Shown piece after piece: positions 30,688 to 39,334 of a stretch of DNA of 39,654 nt. The first letter of the stretch is position 1; each line of letters opens with the position of its first letter. A program made the translations under genes and the position numbers. Origin of the DNA: Thermoflexales bacterium (GTDB taxonomy: Bacteria > Chloroflexota > Anaerolineae > B4-G1 > DUEL01). The notes under the pieces are model-generated. The model was not told the DNA's origin, ran no database searches, and saw nothing but the letters and a program-made list of their open reading frames with translations. The stretch covers positions 1-39,654 of the forward strand of contig JACIWQ010000018.1 in NCBI GenBank assembly GCA_014360895.1, read 5' to 3'.

Positions 30688-31611
30688 TTAATGATTGGGG
30701 CGACCGGCAGCGGGTAAACGCCGGTCATTTTCATCTCCTGCCCGATAATCTTCCCAGGTCTCCGGGTGAATCCACACATCGCCGATTCGCAGAGCGTCCA
30801 CCTCTTGCAGGGAGTGGGCCGGGGTGAGGAGAAGGACGGTCTTCCGGGCCGGGTCGGCCTCCAGAACGATGCCCAGGGCCAGCGCGAACCCCCGGCGGTC
30901 CTCCATCGCCACCAGTTGGTACCGGCTAAAGCAGGGGGCAGGAAATACAGCCAGGCGCGCCCAGGAGATTTCCAGCGGATAGGCGTCGGCGAAATAGCGG
31001 GCGAAGAGGCGGGCGCGGTAGGCCCGACGGGTCAGCATATCGCGCGGCCGGATTGCCGGAGCGGCCGGAAGTTCCACCACGCGCGTGCGGGCCGAGCGAC
31101 GCAGCGGGCCCAGAATGGGCTCCAGTTCATTCCCCTGCCGAATCGCGAACACGACGGTGGGCTCCAGGAGGTCCACCTTCGCCTGCTTCAGCGCCGGCCC
31201 CCCCTGTTCCGGAGCAATCAACCCCGTGGTATCCAGAACGGTCACCGTGGCGCCCAGTTCCTGCGCCCGCCGGGCCAGTTTATGGACGCCGATCAGGGTG
31301 GGCAGCATATGCCCCCGGGGGGAGTTGGAGCCCACAAAGAACCGCACGCGCGGGCCGCCGGGGGGAAACCCCGTCTCCCCGCCCTGCCGCAGGGCCAGCG
31401 TCATCGTCGTCGGCGGACCCAGGCTGGCCTGACCGATGTCGCCGTCAATGAACGCCACTCGCTCATGGAACGCGCAGAGACGGGTGTACAGGTACCGGGC
31501 AAAGGTGGATTTCCCCGTATCCGGCGCGCCGATGACCATCAGGACGCCGGAGAGGCCCTCCAGGCTCAGTTGCTCCCAGTACGGTGGAATTTCTATGTGG
31601 ACCACGGGCAC
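30688..31611 (-). CDS. Clp1/Grc3-like polynucleotide 5'-hydroxyl kinase
   Basis: This 307-residue P-loop enzyme is of the Clp1_P family, which phosphorylates 5'-OH ends of RNA or DNA. Walker A is IGAPDTGKSTFARYL (residues ~27-41). The Walker-B-like segment is AFIDGDIGQASLGPPTTM, whose DxDxGQ and PP match Clp1/Grc3/Nol9. VLDTTGLI and FAIRQGNELEPILGPLRR (lid with paired arginines) follow. A small C-terminal beta domain (ALALGIVLEADPARKTVLLLTP) completes it. The start is GTG 31611. A 28-nt tandem repeat separates it from endonuclease IV, its upstream operon neighbour. The pairing suggests an end-processing role in repair or RNA maintenance. Confidence 0.85.
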   Translation of the reverse strand: MPVVHIEIPPYWEQLSLEGLSGVLMVIGAPDTGKSTFARYLYTRLCAFHERVAFIDGDIGQASLGPPTTMTLALRQGGETGFPPGGPRVRFFVGSNSPRGHMLPTLIGVHKLARRAQELGATVTVLDTTGLIAPEQGGPALKQAKVDLLEPTVVFAIRQGNELEPILGPLRRSARTRVVELPAAPAIRPRDMLTRRAYRARLFARYFADAYPLEISWARLAVFPAPCFSRYQLVAMEDRRGFALALGIVLEADPARKTVLLLTPAHSLQEVDALRIGDVWIHPETWEDYRAGDENDRRLPAAGRPNH

Positions 31612-31637
31612 CCGATCCCAGACGATTGACCCCGGAT

Positions 31638-31738
31638 GACTCCCGACTGCCCCCTATCAGCTACCGACTTCCGACTGCCCCCTGTCGGCTACCGACTTCC
31701 GACTGCCTCCTATCAGCTACCGACTCCCGACTGCCCCC
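31638..31738. repeat. 28-nt tandem repeat, 3.6 copies
   Basis: Units start at 31638, 31666, 31694 and 31722 (partial): GACTYCCGACTGCCYCCY followed by RTCRGCTACC. They are direct repeats with no spacers, so not a CRISPR array. The stop codon of endonuclease IV lies in unit 3. Confidence 0.93.
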
Positions 31739-32577
31739 ACGAGAGAGCGAAGAACGGCCAGGTTCTCTATGTCTTCATGCAGGTCGTCGCTTTTGGGCGT
31801 CTCTAACAGACCCGGCAGCGCGGCCAGGCGCGGGTCGTTGACCACCATCCGGAAGGTTTCCAGTCCCAGCACCCCCTTGCCGATATGCTCATGCCGGTCC
31901 ACCCGGCTGCCCAGGCCGTTTTTGCTGTCGTTGAGATGAACGGCCATAAGGCGGGAGAGACCGATGACCCGGTCAAACTCCTGCAGCGTTGCCTCGTACC
32001 CTTCGGGGGTCCGCAGTTCGTAGCCCGCCGAAAAAGCGTGGCATGTATCCAGGCAGACCCCCAACCGCTCTCCCTCCGGGGTGTTCTCTATCAGCCAGGC
32101 CAGTTGTTCAAACCGGTACCCCAGATTGGTCCCCTGTCCGGCGGTCGTCTCCAGCAGGATGCGGGCCCGGAAACCGCGCGTGGCGGCGTGAACTTCTCCC
32201 AACGCCCGGGCCACCCGTCTCAGTCCCTCCTCCTCCCCGGCGCCCATGTGGGAGCCCGGATGAAGCACCAGGTACGGGATGTCCAGCGCCTCACACCGCT
32301 CCAGTTCTATGATCAGGGTATCCAGGGACCGCCGCCAGAGGTCCTCCTCCGGCGCGGCCGGGTTCAGCAGATAGGACGCATGCCCCACCGCCGGCTGGAT
32401 GCCCGTCTCGGCAGCTTTCTCCTTGAACAGGCGAATATCCTCCTCCGTCAGGGGCTTGACGGCCCAGGCCCGGTTGGACTTGACGAAGAGTTGAACGGCA
32501 TCGCAACCCACCATGCGGGCCCGATCAAACGCCAGGTGGAGGCCACCGGCAATGGACTCATGGGCGCCCAGTCTCAC
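31717..32577 (-). CDS. nfo: Endonuclease IV (AP endonuclease family 2)
   Basis: This Zn-dependent apurinic/apyrimidinic endonuclease makes 3'-OH ends at abasic sites. The 286-residue TIM barrel starts RLGAHESIAGGL. Metal ligands are visible in VGHASYL, VLHPGSHMGAG, ILLETTAGQG, VCLDTCHAFSAGY, AVHLNDSKNGLGSRVDRHEHIG and LLETPKSDD. Together these match the three-zinc site of the family. GTG 32577 follows GGAGGTGG. The last residues (VGAVGSR) and stop come from the 28-nt repeat. Its start overlaps the small coiled-coil gene by 20 bases. It works in base-excision repair, as does MutM encoded at 19517. Confidence 0.95.
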   Translation of the reverse strand: MRLGAHESIAGGLHLAFDRARMVGCDAVQLFVKSNRAWAVKPLTEEDIRLFKEKAAETGIQPAVGHASYLLNPAAPEEDLWRRSLDTLIIELERCEALDIPYLVLHPGSHMGAGEEEGLRRVARALGEVHAATRGFRARILLETTAGQGTNLGYRFEQLAWLIENTPEGERLGVCLDTCHAFSAGYELRTPEGYEATLQEFDRVIGLSRLMAVHLNDSKNGLGSRVDRHEHIGKGVLGLETFRMVVNDPRLAALPGLLETPKSDDLHEDIENLAVLRSLVGAVGSR

Positions 32578-33960: not shown

Positions 33961-33988
33961 TGGACAATCCAGCCCGGGTGGGTATAAT
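33961..33988 (+). promoter_or_regulatory. Sigma-70 promoter of the OB-fold cassette
   Basis: TGGACA (33961-33966), 16-base spacer, TATAAT (33983-33988). Its -35 nearly touches the divergent promoter's -35 (one base between). CTGGA-CAA-TCCAG (33960-33972) is a small inverted repeat over the -35 that could be an operator. Confidence 0.75.
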
Positions 33989-34047: not shown

Positions 34048-35715
34048 ATGACCCATTGCCCCAGTTGTGGGCGATACGTTGGCCCATACGAAGCATGTCC
34101 GTACTGTGGCGCCCGGCAGGCCCCCCGGGTCTCCCTGCGCGCGGTGAAGTGGGCCGCCCTCATCCTGGCCACCGTCGGGCTGGCCCTGCTGTGGGTCGCC
34201 GCCACCCGTCTCCCCCTGCCCCATATCTCCATCAACCAGGCCTCCGCCACCATGAACTTCGCCTACGTGGAGATCGCCGGGCAGGTGGTGCGCGGCCCCA
34301 CCTATAACCCCGATTCCCGCTCCCTCTCCTTCACCGTCGCCGACGATACCGGCGAGATGCGTGTCTGGGCCTTCCGGGATGTGGTGGATAGCCTGCGCGC
34401 CGCCGGACGGATTCCCGGCCTGGGCGACCAGGTCGTCGTCGCCGGCACCCTGCGGGTTCGGGAGGAGGACGTTTCCCTCACCCTCAACGCTCCCGAACAC
34501 TTGCAGGTCACCCGTCCGGAGGCCGAGGAGCGGGCCATCGGCTCCATCACCGCCGCCGATGCCCTCCGGCGGGTCCGGGTACGGGGCCAGGTATGGGACG
34601 TCCGCGAGCCCTACTCCGGCCTCACCCTCATCACCCTCCGGGACGCCACCGGCGCCATCGGCCTGGCGGTGGACGACAGCCTCCGCTACCTGACCGGCGA
34701 CCTTCCCCTGCCGGAAGTGGGCCAGTCCCTGGAAGTCACCGCAACCGTCTCCCTGTACCGGGATACCCCCCAACTGGTCCCGCCGTCGGTGCGGGAGATC
34801 GTTCTGCTGGAAGGGACGGTCCCCGTCGCCGAGGAGCGGCCCATCGGCACCCTCTCCGCCGCCGACGAGGGCCGCCTGGTCACCCTCCGGGGCACCGTCC
34901 GCCAGGCGGAAGCGTTCTCCGCCGGGTACCGGATGCTCCTGGAGGACGATACGGGCTCGGTGACCGTCCTCCTCTGGCAGGACCTCTACCGCGCTCTCTC
35001 GGACCCCGCCGCCCTGCAGGCCGGCGCCCAACTGGAAGTGACCGGCGAAGTCTCCCTCTACCGGAACAGCCTGGAGGTCATCCCGGTCCGCCCGCGCGAT
35101 GTGGTTCTGTTGACGGTGACCCCATCGGCCCGCGCGCTCCCGATCAGCGCGCTGGCGGGTGAACCCCTCGGGGCGATGGTCACCGTGGAGGGGACCGTTG
35201 TGGAGGCCGAATCCTTCCAGAACGGCTTCCGTCTGACCCTGGACGACGGCACCGGGCAGGTTGTCCTGCTGCTCTGGCTCTCGGTGTACGACGAACTGCC
35301 CGACCCCGCCAGCCTGCGGGAGGGCGCGCGGGTGCGGGCGACGGGCGAACTGGAGGAGTACCAGGGCCAGCGGGAGGTGGTGCCGGCCCGGGGGACCGAC
35401 GTGGCGGTCATCCAGCCGGCGGAGGTTCCGCCCCGGCGGGAGATTGCCTCCATCACCCCCGCCGACCGGGGCGCGACGGTGACCGTGGAGGGAGCGGTCG
35501 TCCGGAGCGAACCCTTCTCCCAGGGCTACCGGGTCTGGGTGGACGACGGGAGCGGTGAGGTGCTGGTCCTGCTCTGGCAGAACATCTACGAGCGGGTGGC
35601 GGGCCGGGAGCAGCTGGCCCCCGGCGCGCAGGTCCAGGTGACGGGCATCGTGGAGGAGTACCGGGGGACGCTGGAAATCGTCCCCCCGCTCCCCGGCGAT
35701 GTGGCTGTCCGGTAG
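34048..35715 (+). CDS. Membrane protein with zinc ribbon and five tandem OB-fold domains
   Basis: The 555-residue product starts with a zinc ribbon (Cys4, Cys7, Cys17, Cys20: CPSCG and CPYCG). One membrane helix follows (residues ~35-52). Then come five OB-fold-like domains near 72-155, 175-256, 276-357, 376-455 and 476-555, with a period of ~100 residues. Domains 3-5 are close copies. Each has TVEGTVV at the start, a centre of the LDDGTGxVxLLLW type and an end of the LEVxPxxxxDV type. Each is preceded by a linker such as IASITPADRG. OB folds of this kind usually bind single-stranded nucleic acid, sometimes other ligands. The zinc ribbon lies on the cytoplasmic side and the OB array outside, if the helix is a simple anchor. 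It is the first gene of a four-gene cassette with its own promoter. Confidence 0.85.
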   Translation: MTHCPSCGRYVGPYEACPYCGARQAPRVSLRAVKWAALILATVGLALLWVAATRLPLPHISINQASATMNFAYVEIAGQVVRGPTYNPDSRSLSFTVADDTGEMRVWAFRDVVDSLRAAGRIPGLGDQVVVAGTLRVREEDVSLTLNAPEHLQVTRPEAEERAIGSITAADALRRVRVRGQVWDVREPYSGLTLITLRDATGAIGLAVDDSLRYLTGDLPLPEVGQSLEVTATVSLYRDTPQLVPPSVREIVLLEGTVPVAEERPIGTLSAADEGRLVTLRGTVRQAEAFSAGYRMLLEDDTGSVTVLLWQDLYRALSDPAALQAGAQLEVTGEVSLYRNSLEVIPVRPRDVVLLTVTPSARALPISALAGEPLGAMVTVEGTVVEAESFQNGFRLTLDDGTGQVVLLLWLSVYDELPDPASLREGARVRATGELEEYQGQREVVPARGTDVAVIQPAEVPPRREIASITPADRGATVTVEGAVVRSEPFSQGYRVWVDDGSGEVLVLLWQNIYERVAGREQLAPGAQVQVTGIVEEYRGTLEIVPPLPGDVAVR

Positions 35716-35723
35716 AATACCAT

Positions 35724-35750
35724 GAAAACCTGCGTTCATCCGTGTCCCCC
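35724..35750 (+). repeat. 10-nt repeat, CCGCGTTCAT family (diverged)
   Basis: AAAACCTGCGTTCATCCGTG then TCCCCC, in the 67-base gap between the two OB-fold genes. No terminator is seen, so the genes are probably co-transcribed. Confidence 0.7.
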
Positions 35751-35782
35751 TTTCATGTTCCGCATTCTGTAGGAGGTGCTGG

Positions 35783-36625
35783 ATGCGCCGAATCCTTCCG
35801 GTGATTTTCCTGCTCCTTGTCCTGACCAGCTGCGGGAGGCCGACGCCCACTCTCACGCCGGTCAGCCTGCTGCCCACGCGACCCCCCGCGACGCCGACCG
35901 CCGCGCCGTCCCCCACGCCGATGCCGCCCACACCCACGGCCACACCAAAGCCCCGCCCCACCCTGACGGCGACGCCGTCACCCACGGTGGAACCCTCCCC
36001 AACCCCACCTCCGCCCACGCCGACGCCCGTGCCCGTCGTCATCACCCCCATCGGCCGACTGGCGGAGCACCTGGGTCAGGAGGTGACGGTGGAAGGGCAG
36101 GTCGTCTCCACGGCCTCCTTCTCCAAAGGGTTCAAATTCACCCTGGACGACGGCACCGGACGGGTTGTCCTGCTGATGTGGCTCAACGTGTACGATGATT
36201 GCCGGGATGCGCACAAGATCAACCTGGGCGCGCGGGTGCGGGCCACCGGCACCGTGGGGACCTACGAGAACGAGTTGCAGATTGTGCCCGACTGGGGCCG
36301 ACAGGTGAGGGCCCTCCAGGCCGCCGCCCCCTCTGCCCCGGCGCGCCCGATTGCTTCCCTCACCGCCGCCGACGAGGGCCAGCGGGTGATGATTGAGGGG
36401 ACGGTCGCCCGGATAGAGAAGGGCGAGTCCAACGTCCGGCTCTTCGTCACCGACGGGAGCGGGGAGATACTGGTCCTCCTGTGGCCGAATATCTACGAAC
36501 GGGTGCCCAATCGGGAGCAGCTGGATGCTCCCGGGACAGCGGTGCAGGTGGTGGGGACCGTCCAAATCTATAAGGGGACGCTGGAGGTGATCCCCGCGCT
36601 GCCGTACGACGTGGTCGTCCGATGA
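35783..36625 (+). CDS. Lipoprotein with two OB-fold domains
   Basis: This is a 280-residue lipoprotein with signal MRRILPVIFLLLVLTS and lipobox Cys17 (LTSC). A Pro/Thr-rich tether (~20-87) follows, then two OB-fold domains at ~99-178 and ~201-280. They are close relatives of domains 3-5 of the preceding protein: TVEGQVVSTASFSKGF, LDDGTGRVVLLMW, then TDGSGEILVLLW and NIYERVPNREQL. The protein must sit on the outer face of the membrane. Both genes clearly arose by domain duplication. AGGAGGTG precedes the ATG. The stop overlaps the permease gene (ATGA), so the lipoprotein and the permease are made together, which suggests that the OB folds deliver a ligand to it. Confidence 0.86.
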   Translation: MRRILPVIFLLLVLTSCGRPTPTLTPVSLLPTRPPATPTAAPSPTPMPPTPTATPKPRPTLTATPSPTVEPSPTPPPPTPTPVPVVITPIGRLAEHLGQEVTVEGQVVSTASFSKGFKFTLDDGTGRVVLLMWLNVYDDCRDAHKINLGARVRATGTVGTYENELQIVPDWGRQVRALQAAAPSAPARPIASLTAADEGQRVMIEGTVARIEKGESNVRLFVTDGSGEILVLLWPNIYERVPNREQLDAPGTAVQVVGTVQIYKGTLEVIPALPYDVVVR

Positions 36626-37998
36626 CCGAGATGCTCCGCTCCCTCCTGTTCGCCATTATCGGCGCGCTGGCGGCCGCGCCGCTGGCGCTGCTGCCCGCGC
36701 TCCACATTTATAACATCGCCGGCCTGCTGGTGCTGGGGACTGCGGCCCTGGGCCCCCTCCTCCCCCCGGAGCATATGGCCATGCTCTTCCTGGGCATGAT
36801 TACCTCCTACGCCATCCTGAACACCATCCCCAGTATCTTTTTCTCCGCACCGGACGAGTCCATGGTCTTCATCGTCCTGCCCGGACAGAAGTACCTGATG
36901 CAGGGGCGGGGGTACGAGGCGGTGGCACTGACCGGCATCGGGAGCCTGGGCGGCATCGCCGTCCTGTTCCTGCTGACCCCGGTGGCCCCGCGTCTTTTCC
37001 CGGCCCTGCGGGCGGTCCTCCAGCCGCACCTGCACTGGATTCTGTGGACGGTCATCGCCTTTATGCTGCTCTCGGAGTGGCCCAAGGGGAGCGACCGGGC
37101 CCCGGCCGGGTGGCGGCGCTGGTGGGACGGCTGGCGCAACCTGGTGGCCGGCCTGGCGACCTTCCTCCTCTCCGGCCTCCTGGGCTTCGTCCTGATGTAC
37201 CGCTCTATCCTCCCGGTCTACGCGGCCTACCAGAACCTCCTCCCGGCCTTCGTGGGGCTCTTCGCCGTGCCCTGGGTGCTGCAGAACCTGCTGGCGCGGG
37301 TGGAGTTACCGCCCCAGTACATCGCCCGCGACGTGGACGCCACCCCGGGCCTGGTCGGACGGGGGGTTTTTGCCGGGGCGCTGGGCGGCCTCTTCGCCGC
37401 CTTCTTCCCGGTGGTGACAGGGGGCATCGGCGGCCTCATCGCCGGACACGCCACGGCCCAGCGGGACGACCGGCTGTTCATCCTCTCCCAGGGCGCCTCC
37501 AAAGTCGTCTACTACGTGGGCGGATTCCTGCTCTTCTTCGTCCCCGGCCTCTACCTGACGCGCGGCGGCATGGCCTGGATGCTGAGCACCCTGTGGCGGT
37601 CATACACCCCCCAGGCCTACTATCTGGCCGTCGCCGCCGTCCTGCTGACCGGTGTCCTTTCCTACTTCCTGCTCCTGGCGCTGGCGCGCGGGGTTATCCG
37701 GATGATGGGGAGGGTGAACTACCGCGTCGTCAGCTGGGCCGTGCTGGTGGTCCTGATGGTGGTGGTCATGGGGATACCGGCGCTGGGGGAGTACGTGGGC
37801 AGCGGGGACGGGACGGCCGCGCTGCGGGCCGCCCTGGGGGGACTGGCCATCGGCGCCGTCGCCACCGGTATCGGCCTCATCCCCGTCCTCTGGGGCGCCC
37901 GGCGAATGAACTGCATGGGGTTGCTTCTGCTCCCCATCGCCCTGAACATGTCCGGCCTCGGCGCGACGGTGGCCGGCTGGCTGGGCCTGCTGGGATAG
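36622..37998 (+). CDS. TctA/COG1784-like membrane permease
   Basis: This is a 458-residue integral membrane protein with about 11 hydrophobic segments. The N-terminal region (ALHIYNIAGLLVL, then NTIPSIFFSAPDESMVFIVL, residues ~67-86) and the middle repeat (FFPVVTGGIGGLIAGHATAQ) match the TctA superfamily in its archaeal-type COG1784 branch. In the classic tricarboxylate transporter TctA needs a small TctB and a binding protein TctC, but neither is here. Instead, the coupled partner is an OB-fold lipoprotein. The transported substrate is therefore unlikely to be assumed as citrate. It starts at ATG 36622 within the previous stop. The LysM gene follows seven bases after its stop. Confidence 0.8.
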   Translation: MTEMLRSLLFAIIGALAAAPLALLPALHIYNIAGLLVLGTAALGPLLPPEHMAMLFLGMITSYAILNTIPSIFFSAPDESMVFIVLPGQKYLMQGRGYEAVALTGIGSLGGIAVLFLLTPVAPRLFPALRAVLQPHLHWILWTVIAFMLLSEWPKGSDRAPAGWRRWWDGWRNLVAGLATFLLSGLLGFVLMYRSILPVYAAYQNLLPAFVGLFAVPWVLQNLLARVELPPQYIARDVDATPGLVGRGVFAGALGGLFAAFFPVVTGGIGGLIAGHATAQRDDRLFILSQGASKVVYYVGGFLLFFVPGLYLTRGGMAWMLSTLWRSYTPQAYYLAVAAVLLTGVLSYFLLLALARGVIRMMGRVNYRVVSWAVLVVLMVVVMGIPALGEYVGSGDGTAALRAALGGLAIGAVATGIGLIPVLWGARRMNCMGLLLLPIALNMSGLGATVAGWLGLLG

Positions 37999-38005
37999 GG
38001 GGGAC

Positions 38006-38764
38006 ATGCGATCCGCCGGGATCAGCACACGAGTGGCGCTCGTCCTGATTCTGCTCTCGGCGGTCGCCGGAGCGATTTTGCTCCTGCTGGGGCGGGAGCC
38101 ATCGCCGGAGGGGGCGGCCACCCCGACCCCATCTGCCACAGTGGCACCATCGCCGACGGCGACGGCGGTCCCCACGGTCCCCCCGCCATCCCCCACTCCC
38201 GGCCCGCTCCTCCACGTTGTCCAGCCCGGGGAGACACTGGCCAGCATCGCGGCGGCCTACGGCGTCCCGCTGGCCGAACTGATCGCCGTCAACCACATCC
38301 AGGACCCCAACCTCATCCGGGTCGGACAGGTGCTGGTGATCCCCGGAGTCTCGGCGACGGCGGTCCCCGCGGAGAGCCCCACACCCCTTCCGGCCAGTGG
38401 TCCGGCCCCGACGCCGGTCCGGCGGCCCACCCTTTCTGCACCGACTCCGTCCGGCCCGCCCGCGGTGGAGATTGCCGGCGTGCTGGGCGCGGGGGACCTG
38501 GCGCGCGAAAGCGTCCGCCTGCGCAATCGCGGGGGAACGGTCTCCCTGGAGGGATGGAGTCTCTCCGATGCCAGCGGCGACCGTTACACCTTCCCCCGCC
38601 TGGTCCTCTTCTCCGGAGGGGAGGTCATCCTCCACTCCGGCCCCGGAATCTCCACTCCGACCGACCTCTACTGGAACCGCGCCGCGCCGGCCTGGCAATC
38701 GGGGGAACTGCTCACCCTGCGGGATGTGGAGGGAAACGTGGTAGATACCTACGTAGTCCCTTGA
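38006..38764 (+). CDS. Surface protein with LysM and lamin-tail (LTD) domains
   Basis: The 252-residue protein has an N-terminal membrane helix (VALVLILLSAVAGAILLLL) and a Thr/Pro-rich linker. A LysM domain (~69-113: HVVQPGETLASIAAAYGVP to IRVGQVLVIPG) follows, then a second Pro-rich linker and a lamin-tail domain (~150-252: VRLRNRGGTVSLEGWSLSD, GGEVILHSGPG, LLTLRDVEGNVVDTY). LysM binds peptidoglycan or chitin-like glycans. Bacterial LTDs often occur with secreted nucleases or ComEC-like proteins. It is seven bases after the permease gene, behind GGGGGGGA, and closes the cassette. A role in tying the system to the wall is likely. Its stop overlaps the -35 of the next promoter. Confidence 0.88.
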   Translation: MRSAGISTRVALVLILLSAVAGAILLLLGREPSPEGAATPTPSATVAPSPTATAVPTVPPPSPTPGPLLHVVQPGETLASIAAAYGVPLAELIAVNHIQDPNLIRVGQVLVIPGVSATAVPAESPTPLPASGPAPTPVRRPTLSAPTPSGPPAVEIAGVLGAGDLARESVRLRNRGGTVSLEGWSLSDASGDRYTFPRLVLFSGGEVILHSGPGISTPTDLYWNRAAPAWQSGELLTLRDVEGNVVDTYVVP

Positions 38765-38789
38765 CAAATTTTCCCTCCTGTGGTATACT
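38761..38789 (+). promoter_or_regulatory. Consensus promoter of the fmdB-like/csoR-like operon
   Basis: TTGACA (38761-38766), 17-base spacer, TGGTATACT (extended -10; -10 at 38784-38789). Transcription would start near 38796. Confidence 0.88.
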
Positions 38790-38822: not shown

Positions 38823-39023
38823 ATGCCCGTCTACGAGTACCGGTGTCCCAAATGCGGTGAACGGTTTGAGAAGTTTGTGCGGTCGTTTAGTGCCCAGGCG
38901 GAGGTCGTCTGCCCCCGTTGTGGCAACACGGACGTGGAGAAGGCCGTCTCCCTCTTTGCCGGTCTGACCGGGAGCGGTCGGGCATCTTCGGGTGCCTCGT
39001 GCTCTTCGGGAGGGTCGCTTTGA
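38823..39023 (+). CDS. FmdB-type zinc-ribbon protein
   Basis: This is a 66-residue protein of the FmdB/CxxC small regulatory family. It starts MPVYEYRCPKCGERFEKF, the family's diagnostic N-terminus. Zinc ligands are Cys8, Cys11, Cys30 and Cys33. The tail is Gly/Ser-rich with one more Cys (SGASCSSGGSL). Its role is not firmly known; members have been linked to gene regulation or to zinc-dependent assembly. AGGAGG stands six bases before the ATG. It is co-transcribed with the CsoR-family gene 44 bases downstream, behind a promoter that overlaps an operator. A link to metal or sulfur stress is inferred from that neighbour. Confidence 0.9.
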   Translation: MPVYEYRCPKCGERFEKFVRSFSAQAEVVCPRCGNTDVEKAVSLFAGLTGSGRASSGASCSSGGSL

Positions 39024-39067
39024 GGGGTTTCGTAGGATGGGGGAGCCGGTGGCTCCCCGGGGGTGAA

Positions 39068-39334
39068 ATGGCCATTCAGGACCCACAGATCAAAGCGGAC
39101 CTGATCCAGCGATTGCGGCGGATTGAGGGGCAGGCCCGAGGCGTGGCCCGGATGATAGAGGACGGTCGGGATTGCCAGGAAGTGCTCCAGCAACTGGCCG
39201 CCATCCGGGCCGCCGTCCAGCAGGCCAGCATTCAGGTCATGCGTTCCTACGCGCTGGAGTGCATCCAGGCCGCCAACGCCTCGCCCGACGAAATGGCCGA
39301 AGCCCTGATCCAGGCTGTCACCCGCTTCGCCTGA
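39068..39334 (+). CDS. CsoR-family repressor with CstR-like cysteine pair
   Basis: This all-helical repressor of 88 residues is of the CsoR/RcnR/CstR/FrmR (DUF156) family: LIQRLRRIEGQARGVARMIE, DGRDCQEVLQQLAAIRAA and MRSYALECIQ. Cu(I)-sensing CsoR uses Cys36, His61 and Cys65. Here Cys36 and Cys65 are present but residue 61 is Tyr. CstR, the persulfide/sulfite sensor, keeps the same Cys pair 29 residues apart and lacks the His. I infer a reactive-sulfur (persulfide) sensor rather than a copper sensor. I chose ATG 39068 (GGGGGTGA upstream), because the longer frame from 38918 reads through the fmdB gene. It probably binds the operator at 38782. Confidence 0.88.
   Translation: MAIQDPQIKADLIQRLRRIEGQARGVARMIEDGRDCQEVLQQLAAIRAAVQQASIQVMRSYALECIQAANASPDEMAEALIQAVTRFA

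Follow-up and report, generated by a model that had tools for sequence, protein, structure and literature searches.

An OB-fold array protein and an orphan TctA-type permease co-occur across several bacterial phyla and may be a counterpart of an archaeal transformation pair

The window analyzed here is a 39,654-nt stretch of DNA from a Thermoflexales bacterium (Chloroflexota), and it carries four adjacent plus-strand genes near its 3′ end. Gene 1 (34048..35715, 555 aa), which we treat as core component 1, encodes a protein with a zinc ribbon, one helix, and five OB folds. Gene 2 (35783..36625, 280 aa), an accessory, encodes a lipoprotein with a lipobox (LTSC), a Pro/Thr linker, and two OB folds. 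Gene 3 (36622..37998, 458 aa), core component 2, encodes a TctA-type (PF01970) integral membrane protein, and gene 4 (38006..38764, 252 aa), a lineage-specific accessory, encodes an N-terminal helix followed by LysM and lamin-tail (LTD) domains. An earlier annotation made from the letters alone (the sequence-only reading) had described four adjacent genes with these domains, and open reading frames and Pfam searches agree with it. The lipoprotein stop codon runs onto the permease start codon in a 4-nt overlap (ATGA), and a 7-nt gap separates the permease gene from the LysM-LTD gene. Promoter-like sites lie at both ends, TGGACA-16-TATAAT 5′ of gene 1 (33961..33988, plus strand) and TTGACA-17-TATACT beginning at the gene 4 stop codon (38761..38789, plus strand), each recognized by consensus match only, and on this basis the four genes look like a single promoter-bounded unit in this genome. 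The second site would both close the cassette and open the next unit, an FmdB-type zinc ribbon gene and a CsoR/RcnR-type metal-sensitive repressor gene (38823-39334) that follow the cassette with this promoter-like site of their own. A few kilobases upstream of the cassette, on the opposite strand, a polynucleotide-kinase-like gene of the CLP1_P type (30688-32577, minus strand; PF16575, E value of 1e-29) adjoins an AP endonuclease gene of the endonuclease IV type (PF01261).

Pfam detects five PF01336 OB stretches in gene 1 (E value of 9.7e-38) in addition to a CxxC..CxxC ribbon and one helix. The ribbon cysteines (C4-C7-C17-C20, 34057..34107) precede a transmembrane helix at aa 30 to 54 (34135..34209) and OB folds 1 (34225..34527), 2 (34528..34821), 3 (34822..35127), 4 (35128..35415), and 5 (35416..35712), all on the plus strand. 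The helix is placed by an AlphaFold2 model, which also contains five OB barrels at a mean pLDDT of 91.3, in agreement with Pfam for each fold and with structural matches for OB fold 3; the pTM is low (0.58), so the relative placement of the barrels is not fixed. Arginine and lysine residues directly before the helix predict a cytoplasmic ribbon by the positive-inside rule, and from this we infer that the OB folds lie outside the membrane. When 24 N-terminal sequences (zinc ribbon, helix, and OB1) from Chloroflexota, Muiribacteriota, and others are aligned, every one of them keeps all four cysteines, an OB1 proline, and an arginine ahead of the helix, which at the level of sequence shows the ribbon, helix, and OB1 to be one orthologous module. 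The ribbon is absent from the OB proteins of a Chloroflexota branch in which the OB gene is unlinked to the permease gene and from the cyanobacterial versions described below.

The reading of the gene 1 repeats as OB folds is supported by the model and by its structural neighbors, which indicate OB domains of the nucleic-acid-binding type. The best structural matches of the array were p204 HIN, RPA, Teb1, the telomere end-binding protein, RADX, and CST, and single OB folds matched RPA domains, including those of M. maripaludis and M. jannaschii, as well as class II tRNA synthetases. The folds are mostly acidic, with pI values of 4.3 to 4.9 and one of 6.1. The segment containing the helix and OB1 (aa 33 to 136) also matched DUF4131, the N-terminal OB family of ComEC, just above the cutoff (E value of 4e-8, 33.5 bits versus 31.6), although PF01336 was far stronger. 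DNA binding has been reported for the DUF4131 family (PMC12455585).

The gene 2 lipoprotein contains two PF01336 stretches (E value of 5.7e-19). These had been called near-identical, but they share only 28% identity with each other; their identities to OB4 and OB5 of gene 1 are 51% and 59%, respectively. This suggests that the lipoprotein is probably a duplicate of the OB4-OB5 end of gene 1. The OB lipoprotein is present in only part of the clade.

The gene 3 product matches PF01970 (TctA; E value of 7.5e-33) and has 11 hydropathy peaks. No TctB or TctC gene was found beside it or within the cassette, and a search of the whole genome found no second PF01970 gene, consistent with the description of the gene 3 product as an orphan permease of the TctA/COG1784 type; among archaea, the PF01970 family is COG1784/arCOG04469 (PMC5898192). 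The permease had no match to the Competence domain (PF03772), the genome's PF03772 gene being elsewhere (G000:C20). The permease model is of good quality (pLDDT of 89.8, pTM of 0.90), but no related solved structure was found by sequence, and Foldseek searches with the model returned nothing below 0.001. The best VIA-align 2 match was the YS1 transporter (Z of 11.6, rmsd of 5.6 over 283 residues), followed by INDY- and TRAP-type proteins (Z of 5 to 8). YS1 was rejected as a structural relative, since a Z of 11.6 is within the range of unrelated helical proteins, and judged from the model the permease appears to have no clear structural relative. A clade permease profile scored OB-linked cyanobacterial TctA proteins at 141 to 145 bits, whereas a canonical Parasedimentitalea TctA (L151), whose gene adjoins a TctC-type gene, fell below threshold. 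This suggests, for a small sample, that OB-linked permeases group apart from canonical TctA.

The sequence-only reading proposed a search for conserved co-occurrence of the OB-fold genes with COG1784, and for the OB-array gene such co-occurrence was found. Among 251 Chloroflexota genomes of at least 90% completeness, the permease profile hit 9, a ribbon-helix-OB1 profile hit the identical 9, and 242 had neither. The OB profile, although derived from linked members, found none in the 242 permease-free genomes, which include members of the carriers' class. The carriers fall in 4 of 71 sampled families, and the chance of such a match is 1e-16 counted by genome or ∼1e-6 by family, simple figures that shared ancestry of the genomes inflates. 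The OB gene lies apart from the permease gene in seven of the nine carriers. In 20 Muiribacteriota genomes, the permease was found in 13, the OB protein in 14, and both in 13; in the one genome with the OB protein alone, the OB genes are at a contig edge. A wider permease scan yielded 57 loci. Of those whose upstream sequence was available, about half had an OB-array gene 5′ of the permease gene in the same orientation, usually at a gap of −23 to +173 nt. Where an adjacent OB gene was missing or the locus was cut, all 30 genome handles tested had an OB match in the genome (one match is weak, and some handles repeat a genome). Pairwise divergences of the OB and permease proteins were strongly correlated (r = 0.93 for 52 pairs and 0.90 for 18 unlinked pairs), a value reached in 0 of 2,000 permutations.

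These two proteins occur as a pair with the distribution given here. Unlinked co-occurrence in separate lineages argues for functional coupling, and by far the best reading of the sequence data is that the OB-array gene and the TctA permease gene form a core pair that would act as one functional unit. The composition of the loci varies around this core. The OB gene of the unlinked Roseilinea-type branch encodes a helix and three OB folds with no ribbon and often adjoins a small gene that by eye is Trm112-like. Directly 3′ of TctA in the Roseilinea/Thermoflexales-type branch with an unlinked OB gene is a family of ∼140 aa with no Pfam match (L040-L048, L054, and L097; for example, 3158-3592 of L097). 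Some Muiribacteriota (L089, L091, L093, and L094) carry two different ribbon-helix-OB genes in tandem 5′ of TctA, two TctA loci are present in each of two genomes (G254 and G264), and in one locus an amidohydrolase gene (L010, 6400-7923) sits between the OB genes and TctA.

Two plasmids of cyanobacteria carry a distant version of the pair in the same gene order. On the Cylindrospermopsis plasmid (L069, 4201-8379), which gave the best plasmid match to the permease, the permease gene is immediately preceded by a gene annotated as OB-fold and followed by a NERD-domain gene. On the Pseudanabaena plasmid (L070, 3853-6347), a helix-plus-OB gene annotated as hypothetical lies upstream, 383 nt from the permease gene; topA is found ∼2 kb downstream of this pair. 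The plasmid search with the permease gave only these cyanobacterial matches and canonical proteobacterial TctA, and a search of viral contigs gave no relative.

The claim that all four genes form a functional unit did not hold up. Pfam confirms LysM (E value of 2e-16) and LTD (E value of 6e-13) domains in gene 4, but LysM-LTD genes are limited to the nearest relatives (L002-L005). Two further candidates, L038 and L137, were rejected as carriers because they have LysM without LTD. The argument that the lamin-tail domain points to nucleic acids did not hold up either. The gene 4 product may be a cell wall anchor for the complex of this lineage. The most recurrent other neighbor of OB-linked TctA is a membrane protein of the YdjM family (PF04307), whose gene is near TctA in 10 scan loci (L008, L012, L029, L031, L032, L034, L036, L041, L044, and L046). 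It is directly 3′ of TctA, often by 0 to 44 nt, in most Muiribacteriota loci (L081-L094) and in L008, L029, L032, L034, and L036, and it was not found beside TctA in the window. In Escherichia coli, YdjM is LexA controlled.

A pair of this make-up has been characterized genetically in archaea. In the methanogen Methanococcus maripaludis, MMJJ_13020 (an OB fold and one helix) and MMJJ_13030 (TctA-like, 11 helices) are each required for natural transformation, which is abolished by transposon hits in or clean deletions of either gene and restored in trans (PMC10133366). The MMJJ_13030 homolog is likewise essential for transformation in Methanoculleus thermophilus, as determined by deletion, where MMJJ_13020 has no single clear homolog, and the authors proposed MMJJ_13030 as a candidate archaeal DNA transporter (PMC10133366). 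The cassette had been called undescribed. For the archaeal OB/TctA pair, described genetically in 2023, the word no longer applies; for the bacterial pair, no paper describing it was found in the literature collection searched. The role in nucleic acid uptake suggested by the sequence-only reading gains, by analogy, an experimental precedent (PMC10133366).

We consider it slightly better than an even chance (a probability of about 0.52) that the cassette is a bacterial counterpart of the archaeal pair that captures extracellular nucleic acid and passes it through the TctA-type protein. The bitopic gene 1 product, with its cytoplasmic zinc ribbon, helix, and outer string of OB folds, would work with the orphan TctA-type protein as an obligate two-component system. 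The OB string, joined in the window genome by the two-OB lipoprotein, would capture nucleic acid, probably single stranded, at the outer face of the membrane and would pass it to the TctA-type protein, which would let it through. This proposal draws on the matches of the array to tandem-OB DNA-binding proteins and on the helix-OB1 segment reaching the DUF4131 cutoff. Nucleic acid is the likely substrate; in bacteria it would be DNA and would move inward, past OB folds on the outside. The acidity of the OB folds, the carboxylate transport for which the TctA family is otherwise known, and the response of MMJJ_13030 to selenium all count against this proposal.

An alternative is a transporter of small molecules or oxyanions, in which TctA is the permease and the tethered OB array replaces TctC and binds a nucleotide, an oxyanion, or an organic acid, the archaeal transformation defect then being indirect. 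The family membership of the permease and its model neighbors YS1, INDY, and TRAP, all small-solute carriers but with Z scores that are weak for helical proteins, agree with such a role, as do the acidic OB domains and the rise of MMJJ_13030 mRNA by 2.6 log2 under selenium depletion (PMC11097638). We nevertheless regard it as unlikely: to bind one small ligand, a design with up to seven tandem OB folds would be odd, the array has its structural matches among tandem OB proteins that bind polymers, and the archaeal mutants were wholly transformation negative and could be rescued (PMC10133366). The pair might instead handle nucleic acid for purposes other than transformation and in parallel with ComEC, either scavenging extracellular oligonucleotides as a nutrient or exporting nucleic acid into the wall or matrix. 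The carriers have ComEC and DprA anyway, and the LTD of the window and the NERD nuclease of Cylindrospermopsis are domains seen with nucleases, but the window cassette has no nuclease gene and the archaeal phenotype is one of taking up plasmids that go on to replicate or integrate, which makes this explanation improbable.

More improbable still is an envelope sensor, with the array detecting a polymer of the envelope, the helix and cytoplasmic ribbon relaying the signal, and TctA serving as a regulated channel. The invariance of the ribbon in 24 homologs would fit a sensor, and the recurrent YdjM-family neighbor would point to damage or envelope stress, but the unlinked Chloroflexota branch and the cyanobacteria do without the ribbon, so signaling through it is not essential. 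That unrelated surface genes have come together by chance is barely credible; the poor conservation of the LysM-LTD gene with the other genes is what such a neighborhood would give, but in two phyla the two core genes strictly accompany each other, whether linked or unlinked, and this refutes it for the OB/TctA core.

Nucleic acid capture and passage by the OB/TctA pair must also be set against the competence genes of its hosts. A ComEC-type gene is present in 9 of 9 Chloroflexota carriers, in 18 of 20 Muiribacteriota, and in most other carriers, and a second DNA channel would therefore be redundant. This distribution also led us to reject the pair as a substitute for a missing ComEC. No PilT-family match was found in the window genome or in seven other Chloroflexota carriers, so most of them show no evident sign of the usual route through type IV pili. 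A bolder extension is that the pair is a second, ComEC-independent DNA translocase in at least three bacterial phyla and also the archaeal DNA transporter, one system across both domains; we put this forward tentatively, as possible but short of even odds.

For the passage of DNA across the archaeal cytoplasmic membrane, the genetic candidates are an OB protein and a TctA-like protein (PMC10133366). That two proteins of like make-up are strictly inherited together in several phyla of bacteria suggests that they are one ancient unit. The bacterial pair also offers a large set of sequences from which structures and complexes can be predicted, and it opens the transporter hypothesis to direct testing.

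Compared with known systems, the window permease fits the TctA profile as TctABC permeases do but is paired with OB proteins instead of adjoining TctB and TctC. The tandem OB folds resemble those of RPA, HIN-200, and telomere end-binding proteins, their best structural matches, but they are membrane anchored and predicted to be extracytoplasmic, and sequence identity is low. As in ComEC, a predicted extracellular OB fold is combined with a polytopic membrane protein, and the helix-OB1 segment has its match to DUF4131 just above the cutoff, but the permease lacks PF03772 and a beta-lactamase-like nuclease domain, and ComEC is encoded by a separate gene in the same genome. Within the bacterial family, the window differs from the loci of Muiribacteriota and several Chloroflexota in having no YdjM-family gene adjoining TctA. 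The closest likeness is to MMJJ_13020 and MMJJ_13030, with the same make-up and order, PF01970, and no TctB or TctC, a likeness of family, architecture, and gene order from which we infer orthology. The bacterial hosts differ in also having ComEC, and the window proteins differ in the zinc ribbon, the five OB folds, and the OB lipoprotein. The cassette would be a bacterial variant of an archaeal pair known from genetics.
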